64,000 nt of DNA, taken from contig JAOZHW010000005.1 of the NCBI GenBank assembly GCA_026014685.1, positions 62,001 to 126,000 on the forward strand. Direction: 5' to 3'. Below the pieces are notes generated by a model. It saw only the letters and a list, made by a program, of their open reading frames with translations. It had not been told where the DNA came from and did not search any database. The position numbers were made by a program, and so were the translations under genes. The DNA is from Candidatus Bathyarchaeota archaeon. Lineage in GTDB: Archaea > Thermoproteota > Bathyarchaeia > Bathyarchaeales > Bathycorpusculaceae. This document shows, in pieces, positions 57,091 to 59,979 of the stretch. Every line of letters starts with the position of its first letter. Within the stretch, counting starts at the first letter, position 1.

Positions 57091-57276
57091 GTGTACATGA
57101 AACAAATTGCGGATAAAAACAGAAAACAATTAGAGGCTAAATTAGCCAACGTTTTTGATGAACAGATCACCGGATTGTCTACCGAATTGCGTGAAATATT
57201 GCTAGATGACATGGTGACAGCCTTCGAAAATAGATTAAATGTGTTAAACCAAACCATAGAGAAAGCAGCCTGCTGA
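57091..57276 (+). CDS. Small helical protein, hypothetical
   Basis: 61 residues from GTG 57091, chosen because GGAGG lies six bases upstream; ATG 57097 is also possible, and the frame is open to 57046 with a WCFHC motif that would be lost. The protein is nearly all helix: KQIADKNRKQLEAKLANVFDEQ and TELREILLDDMVTAFENRL. It could form a coiled coil or four-helix dimer. Not recognised. Confidence 0.65.
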   Translation: MYMKQIADKNRKQLEAKLANVFDEQITGLSTELREILLDDMVTAFENRLNVLNQTIEKAAC

Positions 57277-57365: not shown

Positions 57366-57659
57366 GTGCGTCGATCAAAACTCGAAATGTATGTCGATAT
57401 CCTTACAGTGCTTGCACACCGTGGCCCCCTCAAACTAACCCACGTCATGTACAAGGCAAACGTTAACTGCAGCGTCCTCAAAGAATACCTAGACTTCCTG
57501 ATGAAACAGGGTCTGGTGGAAGAGCGCACGATTGGCAAACGGCGGGTAGTTTTCGCTGTCACCCAACGTGGCATTACAGTTCTAAAATACTTCAAGGAAC
57601 TAAAACAAGTTCTGCCCATCGTTGAGGAAGCCAGAAACCAAGCACCAGTCCCCTACTAA
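57366..57659 (+). CDS. HTH_45-type winged-helix regulator
   Basis: 97 residues from GTG 57366 with GAGGAG upstream and a TATA-like TTTATATTAA before it. SKLEMYVDILTVLAHRGPLK, then VMYKANVNCSVLKEYLDFL and GLVEERTIGKRRVVFAVTQRG, is the wHTH with wing known as HTH_45, common in archaea. The tail (TVLKYFKELKQVL) is a dimerisation helix. A related gene lies at 59057. Target genes unknown. Confidence 0.9.
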   Translation: MRRSKLEMYVDILTVLAHRGPLKLTHVMYKANVNCSVLKEYLDFLMKQGLVEERTIGKRRVVFAVTQRGITVLKYFKELKQVLPIVEEARNQAPVPY

Positions 57660-57720: not shown

Positions 57721-57786
57721 TTTATTTTGGTGCTTTTTTCGCGTTAAATAGTTTTCAAAAATACTTAGTTTAGTATCGCAAGACTT

Positions 57787-57809
57787 AATAAACACTTATT
57801 GTGTTTATT
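57787..57809 (+). promoter_or_regulatory. Perfect inverted repeat before coiled-coil/wHTH gene
   Basis: AATAAACAC (57787-57795) and GTGTTTATT (57801-57809) are perfect reverse complements around TTATT. It lies about 19 bases before the preferred ATG at 57828, near the likely transcript start after a TATA-like CAAAAATACTTAG. It is a good operator candidate for the wHTH protein that follows (autoregulation). Confidence 0.55.
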
Positions 57810-57827
57810 TATCCAACAACTGTACAC

Positions 57828-58244
57828 ATGAAAAACAACTCGGGGATTAAAGTGATTAGAAACGACCTGACCAGCAAAAAGCCCTTGAACATTCTCGAAA
57901 AAATAGAGGAAAGCCTCGAGAAACTCAACGAGAAAATGGAAGTCATGATAGAAATCCAAAAAAACACAGCTGGAAACACTACCACCCCCCAGTCTGTTCC
58001 CGCCATACCTGACGCTTCTTTAGACGTTATGACCCTCCTCTCTATGCCGGACCACCTACGAAAGACCGCCATGACGATTTGCAGATGCTCAAAAGCAACC
58101 GCTGAAGAAGTTGCAGAACAAACACAACGCGCTAGAGCCGTTGAGAGCGCTTATCTAAACCAGTTAGTCATCATGGGCTACATCAAAAAAGAACGTAAAG
58201 GCCGCAAAGCATACTTCTATATAGATAGGGAATCACAGAGTTGA
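57828..58244 (+). CDS. Coiled-coil plus winged-helix protein
   Basis: 138 residues from ATG 57828; GTG 57852 with GGGGAT before it is an alternative. The N-terminal part is a strong coiled coil (NILEKIEESLEKLNEKMEVMIEIQKN). A Pro/Thr linker follows, then a wHTH: SMPDHLRKTAMTICRCSKAT, AEEVAEQTQRARAVESAYLNQLV and GYIKKERKGRKAYFYI with the wing. Its stop is four bases from the MinD/ParA-like ATPase start, so the two are coupled. ParA-type ATPases are often paired with DNA-binding partners, so this may be the DNA-binding half of such a pair. Confidence 0.8.
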   Translation: MKNNSGIKVIRNDLTSKKPLNILEKIEESLEKLNEKMEVMIEIQKNTAGNTTTPQSVPAIPDASLDVMTLLSMPDHLRKTAMTICRCSKATAEEVAEQTQRARAVESAYLNQLVIMGYIKKERKGRKAYFYIDRESQS

Positions 58245-58248
58245 GATT

Positions 58249-59028
58249 ATGAGCAAAATACTCGCTGTACACTCATACAAAGGTGGAACTGGCAAAACCT
58301 CCATGTCCGTTAACATAGCTGCAACACTTGCTAAGAACGGCAAAAAAGTCTGCCTCTTCGACTTAGACTTCAGAGCCCCAAGCTTATTTGCCATACTAAA
58401 AGCCCAAAACGTAGAAACCTGGTTCAATGACTACCTTAACAGCACCTGCGAAATCGACAAAGCATTAGTTGACATGAGCCACAGAATTCCAGGCGGCGGA
58501 AAATTCTACGCTTGTCTTGCTAATCCATCCACAGAAGCCATCCGCGACATGTCCTCCAAAGACCGCAAATGGGAAATGCGTGCGCTAGGCAGAATCTTAG
58601 CCCTAAGAGAAAGTCTGCTTAGAGACCAAAAATTCGACTACCTCGTCTTTGACACAAGCCCCGGACTCCAATACTCCTCAATCAACGCCATCGTAGCTGC
58701 AGACTTCGTCGTCGTTGCCACCACTGGTGACCGCTCCGACGTAGACGGAACAAAACGCATGCTAGCAGAACTCTACAATCTCTTCGAGAAAAAAACTGGG
58801 TTAGTGCTAAACAAGGTGTTGGATCCTTCGCTATCCTCTCGAAAGACGGAGATGCAAGCTAAAATCAAAGCGGACTACAAGGTGCCCCTGCTTGGCATGG
58901 TACCGTGTTTCTGTGAGGTCTTACGTGCCGAAGGTAACTTTATTTTCGCCCAGGACAAACCTGACCATCCATTCACAAAGATTGTAGCTGAGATGGTTAA
59001 GAAAATAGAAACCAACGACGTAAATTAA
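58249..59028 (+). CDS. MinD/ParA-family deviant-Walker ATPase
   Basis: 259 residues from ATG 58249. The deviant Walker A is SYKGGTGKTS (Lys11, Lys16), Walker A' is CLFDLDFRAPS (Asp38), and YLVFDTSPGLQYSS follows as Walker B. These ATPases dimerise with ATP and position DNA, chromosomes, flagella, chemoreceptors or other cargo. The partner encoded four bases upstream combines a coiled coil with a wHTH. The middle (STCEIDKALVDMSHRIPGGG) differs from bacterial MinD, and there is no C-terminal membrane-targeting helix evident, so DNA positioning is more likely than septum site selection (inference). Confidence 0.93.
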   Translation: MSKILAVHSYKGGTGKTSMSVNIAATLAKNGKKVCLFDLDFRAPSLFAILKAQNVETWFNDYLNSTCEIDKALVDMSHRIPGGGKFYACLANPSTEAIRDMSSKDRKWEMRALGRILALRESLLRDQKFDYLVFDTSPGLQYSSINAIVAADFVVVATTGDRSDVDGTKRMLAELYNLFEKKTGLVLNKVLDPSLSSRKTEMQAKIKADYKVPLLGMVPCFCEVLRAEGNFIFAQDKPDHPFTKIVAEMVKKIETNDVN

Positions 59029-59056: not shown

Positions 59057-59308
59057 TTAGGAAAAATCTTTCATCAAATCATTCAGTTGCGCAAACAACA
59101 CCAAAAAACGGTAACCTTTCTCAGTGGTTGTGTACCTGTTTACTTTTTTTGCAAGCAAACCCTGCGCGGTTAGGGTGTTCACGTGGTTTTTTAATTGTGA
59201 ATAGTTCAGGTTTGTATTGTACATTATGCTGGTTTTGGTTTTTTGCTGTTCACAAAAGAGCAAAATCTCAGCGTATATGTCCATTTTCCCTCTTCGCCCC
59301 CCTTTCAC
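59057..59308 (-). CDS. HTH_45-type winged-helix regulator (second)
   Basis: About 83 residues from GTG 59308 (ATG 59284 is an alternative; the long open frame to 59470 lacks support). GKMDIYAEILLFCEQQKTKTS, IMYNTNLNYSQLKNHV and LTAQGLLAKKVNRYTTTEKG match the HTH_45 shape seen at 57366, including MY-x-x-N-x-N. Small dimeric transcription regulator. It lies convergent to the MinD/ParA-like gene. Confidence 0.8.
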   Translation of the reverse strand: MKGGRRGKMDIYAEILLFCEQQKTKTSIMYNTNLNYSQLKNHVNTLTAQGLLAKKVNRYTTTEKGYRFLVLFAQLNDLMKDFS

Positions 59309-59465
59309 GCCCTTTCTGCTTCGTCCATGCCTTAAGAGGGCAAACTGAAGGGCGTGAGAATCAAGTTTCTCTGCTTCTGCGGAGTTGTTTGTCACCTTCT
59401 CTATCCCCAGTTTGATTCTCAATAGGTTTTTTTGGAACTTAAAAGAATGTGACTGTACAATAACA

Positions 59466-59505
59466 GCCACAATTAACGCTTGTGGCCGTTAACGGTTTAA
59501 ATATG
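59466..59505 (+). promoter_or_regulatory. Palindromes and TATA box before rnhA
   Basis: GCCACAA (59466-59472) pairs with TTGTGGC (59480-59486). It is followed by the 10-base palindrome CCGTTAACGG (59486-59495) and the TATA-like GTTTAAATATG (59495-59505), about 37 bases before the start. Confidence 0.4.
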
Positions 59506-59541: not shown

Positions 59542-59979
59542 TTGAGTCAGAATCTGCGGGTTTTCTCTGACGGCGGCGCAAGAGGCAACCCTGGACCTGC
59601 AGCAATAGCGTTCATCGCAACTACAGAGTCAGGTGTAACCGTTAAGGCCGATTCACGCTACATCGGCATACACACCAACAATCAAGCAGAGTACCAAGCA
59701 CTACTTTTGGCGTTAAAATATGCTTCAGAACAAAAAGCCTCCCAAGTTACCTGTCACCTCGATAGCGAATTGGTAACTAAACAACTGAACGGCGAGTATG
59801 CCATAAAAAACTATGAACTCCAACAGTTGTTTGCACAGGTTCAGGGCTTTAAGAACTGCTTTAAAAAAATCGCTTTCGTTCACGTCCCACGGAGTCACCC
59901 CATGATTCAGAGAGCAGACGCATTAGTTAACAAAACCCTCGACGAAGAAGCTAAAAGGCGACTTTCTAAATTCCCCTAA
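59542..59979 (+). CDS. rnhA: Ribonuclease HI
   Basis: 145 residues from TTG 59542 with AAGGTG upstream. The active-site acids are Asp10 (VFSDGGARGNPGPA), Glu50 (NNQAEYQALLLAL), Asp74 (CHLDSELV) and Asp126 (RADALVN). It cleaves the RNA strand of RNA-DNA hybrids and so removes primers and R-loops. This is the short archaeal/bacterial type without hybrid-binding domain. Convergent with the large secreted Beta_propel gene. Confidence 0.95.
   Translation: MSQNLRVFSDGGARGNPGPAAIAFIATTESGVTVKADSRYIGIHTNNQAEYQALLLALKYASEQKASQVTCHLDSELVTKQLNGEYAIKNYELQQLFAQVQGFKNCFKKIAFVHVPRSHPMIQRADALVNKTLDEEAKRRLSKFP

Follow-up and report, generated by a model that had tools for sequence, protein, structure and literature searches.

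The genome of a Candidatus Bathyarchaeota archaeon (G000) encodes a winged-helix (wHTH) protein and a ParA/MinD-superfamily ATPase as a tightly spaced pair that co-occurs with two further genes, one for an MFS-like membrane protein and one for a second, divergent polyprenyl-diphosphate synthase; this co-occurrence is new here, the four genes being adjacent in some families and unlinked in that of the window. The wHTH gene (57852..58244 of the window, i.e. the whole 64,000-nucleotide stretch that was analysed; + strand) specifies 130 aa, and its stop codon (58242-58244) is separated by four bases, as the sequence-only reading had it, from the ATG at which the 259-aa ATPase gene begins (58249..59028, + strand). 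Cargos or partners are known for only a few of the ParA/MinD ATPases of archaea, and the named partners of this one (wHTH, MFS-like protein, polyprenyl synthase), together with a residue signature in the ATPase, make its function testable. Possibly, though on balance doubtfully, the operon represents a new class of ParA/MinD module, in which an ATPase with a CxC...H signature and a coiled-coil wHTH protein would link the state of the DNA or nucleoid with an isoprenoid system of the membrane, made up of the MFS-like protein and the second synthase, in at least two classes of Thermoproteota. The data speak against labelling the operon a chromosome partition system. Among the titles and abstracts listed by literature searches, none described such a wHTH-ATPase operon.

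The wHTH gene, defined by an orthologue alignment, its ribosome-binding site and an AlphaFold model, almost certainly starts at the GTG at 57852, since a GGGGA ribosome-binding site (57842..57846, + strand) that is kept in many orthologues precedes it and the ATG or GTG codons further upstream meet a stop or are missing in many orthologues. The pair does have an HTH_45 gene on either side: an Sso10a-like gene upstream (57366..57659, + strand; Pfam 1.2e-16) and a second match downstream (59057-59470; 4.6e-19). The upstream gene is a conserved neighbour in Bathyarchaeia (72 of 80 loci), on the same strand and 464-778 nt upstream at all 60 loci for which offsets were printed; so is a small helical ORF of about 59 aa (57097..57276, + strand; 68 of 80 loci), on the same strand at 60 of 60 printed offsets. 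An RNase H-like gene lies downstream of the operon at 59542-59979.

The pair is conserved in Bathyarchaeia, as had been proposed for checking, and also occurs in other classes. Among 80 loci found in a public genome collection with a wHTH profile, the ATPase gene lies immediately downstream in 77, with gaps of -16 to 16, and the other three had no called ATPase; conversely, a wHTH relative adjoins the ATPase gene in 72 of 79 loci at which the ATPase is at least 35% identical. A full-length ATPase relative (E below 1e-60) is present in 70 of 100 related genomes, and a wHTH match in 83 of 300 genomes drawn from the phylum. The same pair was recognized in 15 of 40 further regions inspected (L193-L207), which belong to other families of the same class and to other classes; in one of these (L197) the ATPase frame is broken. 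Other regions hold more distant relatives, such as C-terminal wHTH fusions (family f38) and stand-alone wHTH forms. Judged by this sequence conservation, the wHTH-ATPase pair is a real operon. Of the alignments used, the first ones leave out two truncated sequences (L063 and L080), with L073 also dropped from A2; many close relatives were omitted by choice from A1 and A2, sequences more than 93% alike were removed from A3 and A4, and A4 also lacks L115 and L170.

In the 74 genomes that are at least 90% complete, taken without a contamination filter, 48 of the 55 with the ATPase have the second synthase, against none of the 19 that lack the ATPase; for the MFS-like gene the counts are 47/55 and 0/19, respectively. 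The Fisher values for these counts ignore kinship. These counts score as absent several synthase matches of 1e-31 to 1e-45 (G066, G068, G069 and a partial one in G053) and a partial MFS match in G065; both partners are missing in six of the 55 ATPase-positive genomes. Two controls gave no association of this kind: a neighbouring radical SAM gene (39/55 versus 10/19, p 0.12) and archaellin (11/55 versus 8/19). The radical SAM gene, of AF0577 type, had been considered as a third partner and was rejected, being present in ATPase-negative genomes also. Within the genus of G000, five genomes that lack the ATPase group together in a single supported clade next to G000, and thus may reflect a single event; the other ATPase-negative genomes of the genus in this tree are incomplete, with the MFS gene retained in G008. 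Across much of family f1 the MFS-synthase pair has a genomic location separate from that of the operon (in G000 it is on contig C23, the operon being on C5), and the distance between it and the operon ranges from 17 kb to more than 1 Mb in ten genomes checked, so their joint loss is not a single deletion. On C23 (L257) and in relatives across much of the genus, the MFS and synthase genes are located between the radical SAM gene and LeuRS; three ATPase-negative genomes (G004, G011 and G028) have LeuRS beside the radical SAM gene, with no MFS-synthase pair between them.

Other families show a recurring gene order: the wHTH-ATPase pair, a convergent MFS-like gene and the divergent polyprenyl synthase. 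Among 143 loci, partly redundant, the MFS gene is downstream of the pair in 29 and upstream in 7, and for the synthase gene the corresponding numbers are 24 and 4; the order is kept in family f18 of another class, in which an inositol-phosphate synthase gene is also upstream at 8 of 8 loci. A digeranylgeranylglycerophospholipid reductase gene is upstream at one locus. The second synthase retains the first DDxxD motif and is distinct from the canonical synthase of the genome. MFS and synthase genes occur in other orientations beside paralogous ATPases as well; at L078 and L079, paralogous ATPase genes are next to MFS-like genes followed by KaiC/RAD55-like (L078) or TIR-like (L079) genes, names assigned by eye.

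The promoter of the operon carries a conserved element, TCGCAAGACTTAATAAA (57776..57792, + strand), which we take, from general knowledge of archaeal promoters, to be BRE/TATA-like and of which this is the only perfect copy in the genome. Its core, CGYAAGAYTTAATA, recurs in 60 of 81 promoters, where it lies as a rule 62-81 nt before the start codon; the element, also written CGCAAGACTT, includes the left arm of a perfect 9-base inverted repeat, AATAAACAC-N5-GTGTTTATT (57787..57809). All 15 perfect copies of TCGYAAGAYTTAATARA, the BRE/TATA-like motif, in 31 genomes sit upstream of a wHTH-ATPase operon, a distribution in which nothing points to centromeres that are dispersed or clustered. A second conserved element, CTGTACAC (57820..57827, + strand), is near the inferred transcription start and is of a TGTANA type (consensus CTGTACACGCGTAAAACAC) found in 52 of 60 promoters, mostly 31-44 nt from the first. 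By eye, the first element was not seen in the upstream stretches inspected for families f18, f37 and f44.

The inverted repeat itself, which the sequence-only reading took for a palindromic operator and proposed to look for in clustered copies, is present before the first gene as described; among 81 promoters, that of the window has it in perfect form, that of the nearest relative (G018) keeps a degraded copy and the others lack it, and it is therefore not the conserved operator. It occurs once in the window, and a genome-wide search allowing up to three mismatches returned no other perfect copy. Perfect 9-base repeats with loops of up to 10 are not rare (one in the window, zero to six in eight Markov controls), and inverted repeats with arms of at least nine bases occur in three of 81 promoters, with differing sequences, which is slightly more than in shuffles (mean 0.2, maximum 1). 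Perfect palindromes of differing sequence near the TATA-like element are those at 57787-57809 and in the promoters of L146 and L176. The single-copy conserved element fits a core promoter that may double as a site of autoregulation.

The predicted coiled-coil and wHTH architecture of the first protein agrees with what had been read from its sequence. The AlphaFold model (mean pLDDT 70.1, pTM 0.37; weak outside the wHTH) has an N-terminal helix at residues 10-39 followed by wHTH elements, and the protein matches Pfam TrmB at 4e-5, below Pfam's own cut-off. The resemblance to a centromere-binding partner proposed for it holds to the extent that the protein resembles AspA, the centromere-binding wHTH protein of the AspA-ParB-ParA system of Sulfolobus plasmid pNOB8, above other PDB chains, and only weakly so: AspA-DNA complexes are the top Foldseek matches of the model (5k5q_C, E 0.043, alone not significant), AspA is among the five matches in a profile search of PDB sequences (E 0.17-0.24, AspA at 0.17), and hhalign gives AspA a probability of 92.8, compared with 23.0 for a pNOB8 MarR control and 0.5 for an HTH_45 protein of the window. 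A VIA-align fold search with the model was uninformative (best Z 4.0), owing to its pTM of 0.37.

This likeness speaks for a role in DNA segregation, in which a centromere located in the promoter of the operon would be bound by the wHTH protein and moved by the ATPase, as in AspA-ParB-ParA or SegAB. The ATPase also fits such a role in that the other PF13614 matches of the genome look, on our own reading, Mrp- or CooC-like; the operon's ATPase may be the only member outside the metallochaperones, which would leave room for a DNA or cargo function. We nevertheless consider segregation improbable. Of the 74 genomes that are at least 90% complete, 19 lack the operon, among them a clade inside the genus, and whole families are without the ATPase (f5, 0/3 genomes; f8, 0/1; f9, 0/9). 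In seven one-contig genomes (the length of G086 being rounded), 260-664 kb separate the operon from the nearest orc1/cdc6 gene, used as an origin proxy, which is no nearer than expected by chance. Searches for the motifs that could be named found no repeated or clustered centromere sites, the repeat being single and the promoter motif having one perfect copy per genome; the wHTH protein is not encoded on any of 72,556 plasmid records. Consistent metabolic partners also set the operon apart from SegAB. The segregation reading, part of the original proposal, is thus weakened by patchy presence, distance from orc1/cdc6, a single-copy element and membrane/isoprenoid partners.

Two archaeal segregation systems are among the closest known ones. 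AspA-ParB-ParA likewise has a wHTH gene upstream of a ParA-family ATPase gene; AspA recognizes a 23-bp palindrome located before its own gene and does not bind ParA (PMC5120986). In contrast, the operon described here is chromosomal, consists of two genes with no ParB gene seen beside them, has a palindrome that is not conserved and encodes an ATPase with CxC...H. SegAB of Sulfolobales, a chromosome segregation system, also consists of two genes, for a ParA-like protein and a site-specific DNA binder, but SegB is a ribbon-helix-helix protein, segA comes first and there are many sites over the chromosome (PMC5120986, PMC12284271), and no other gene is reported to be consistently associated with it (PMC12284271). 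Here the wHTH gene comes first, a winged helix being encoded upstream of the ATPase, the element is single-copy and partner genes are consistent.

The assignment of the second protein to the ParA/MinD superfamily stands, by Pfam matches (AAA_31, 2.4e-21; CbiA, 4e-17), alignments A1 and A4, fold and a deviant Walker A motif, KGGTGKT. Within this motif G12, G13, G15 and K16 are invariant, and K11, present in the window and in operon orthologues, is R in some paralogues; K16, both switch aspartates and N188 are conserved, with D38 in L206 as the sole exception. The AlphaFold model (pLDDT 90.1) is similar to MinD (3r9j, Z 28.7), FleN (5j1j, 27.8), ParA/Soj (27), McdA (6non, 25.1) and SegA (23.4), and the fold does not tell these apart. 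Among the NCBIfam families listed, the ATPase falls below every curated cut-off, including those of MinD (TIGR01968, 68.6 of 212.9 bits; TIGR01969, 64.5 of 201.75). It matches the general ParA-like viral profile phrog_164, the wHTH protein matches no viral profile, and a search for defence systems gave only weak PADLOC matches.

The ATPase is marked by C220, C222 and H240, which are invariant in 46 aligned sequences down to 35% identity and likewise in each of 16 further sequences that include other classes; the CxC presumably follows a strand and a proline leading into the adenine loop, a placement based on the alignment and on knowledge of the family. The closest plasmid matches are cyanobacterial and Streptomyces MinD/ParA proteins of the HSxRGGTGKS type, about 29-33% identical over 95-98%. 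These (Nostoc, Pseudanabaena and Streptomyces relatives) have the histidine that precedes the last helix but no CxC, which pNOB8 ParA and the other family members of the window's genome lack as well. The plasmid genes lie next to genes for a response regulator, a SpoIIE phosphatase or a transporter, and no wHTH partner was seen in the annotated stretches. The signature could point to metal or redox sensing, the cysteines and histidine near the nucleotide-base loop binding metal or forming a disulfide that would control the ATPase and then the wHTH protein. This is quite unlikely: no metal-handling gene is consistently nearby in the data examined, and a CxC...H arrangement can be structural. 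It would also be compatible with an autoregulated switch.

A regulon comprising the MFS and synthase genes under the operon's elements was considered and rejected. No common site emerged in the promoters scanned: best scores for the first element were mostly below the shuffle maximum, and the second exceeded it in 2 of 27 synthase promoters. The close association of the operon with membrane genes that have none of these elements in their promoters suits a role in positioning a protein cargo, by which a nucleoid-bound ATPase, attached directly or through the wHTH protein, would space an MFS-synthase membrane complex in the manner of McdA and MinD-like ATPases, of whose fold class it is a member. 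We regard this as unlikely. The membrane-targeting tail of MinD lies beyond residue 252, with which the last residue (259) of the ATPase aligns, so the MinD-type C-terminal helix is lacking; moreover, no adaptor protein was identified, and a sequence-specific wHTH protein would be an unusual cargo adaptor.

The explanation we prefer, tentatively and with a probability somewhat short of even, is an autoregulated, ATP-switched DNA-binding pair that serves the membrane isoprenoid module. The wHTH protein would dimerize through its coiled coil and bind DNA, most simply at the conserved element that overlaps the TATA box of its own gene. The ATPase would contact the wHTH protein, and its ATP-dependent dimerization, of the ParA/MinD type, would switch DNA binding or assembly of the wHTH protein. 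The output would be required by the MFS-like protein and second synthase. Counting against this explanation are the lack of the operon's promoter elements upstream of the MFS and synthase genes, the six ATPase-positive genomes without either partner and the kinship of ATPase-negative genomes. In FleN-FleQ a MinD-fold ATPase similarly acts on a DNA-binding regulator, as in the putative ATPase-wHTH contact here; FleQ is an AAA+ enhancer-binding protein, unlike the coiled-coil wHTH protein.

Relatives of the wHTH protein occur in other settings. Two more are encoded in the window's genome (G000:C22:29920-30222 and G000:C7:348106-348276), with no adjoining ATPase. In family f38 (L209-L212, L232) the same wHTH forms the C-terminus of proteins of about 300 aa, the N-terminal part being zinc-ribbon-like in the two inspected (L209 and L211). 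Stand-alone relatives are found on IMG/VR contigs (L239-L243), in L240-L243 beside structural-looking genes, and a viral contig end (L234/L238) carries the wHTH gene and the first 50 aa of the ATPase, followed by unrelated sequence.
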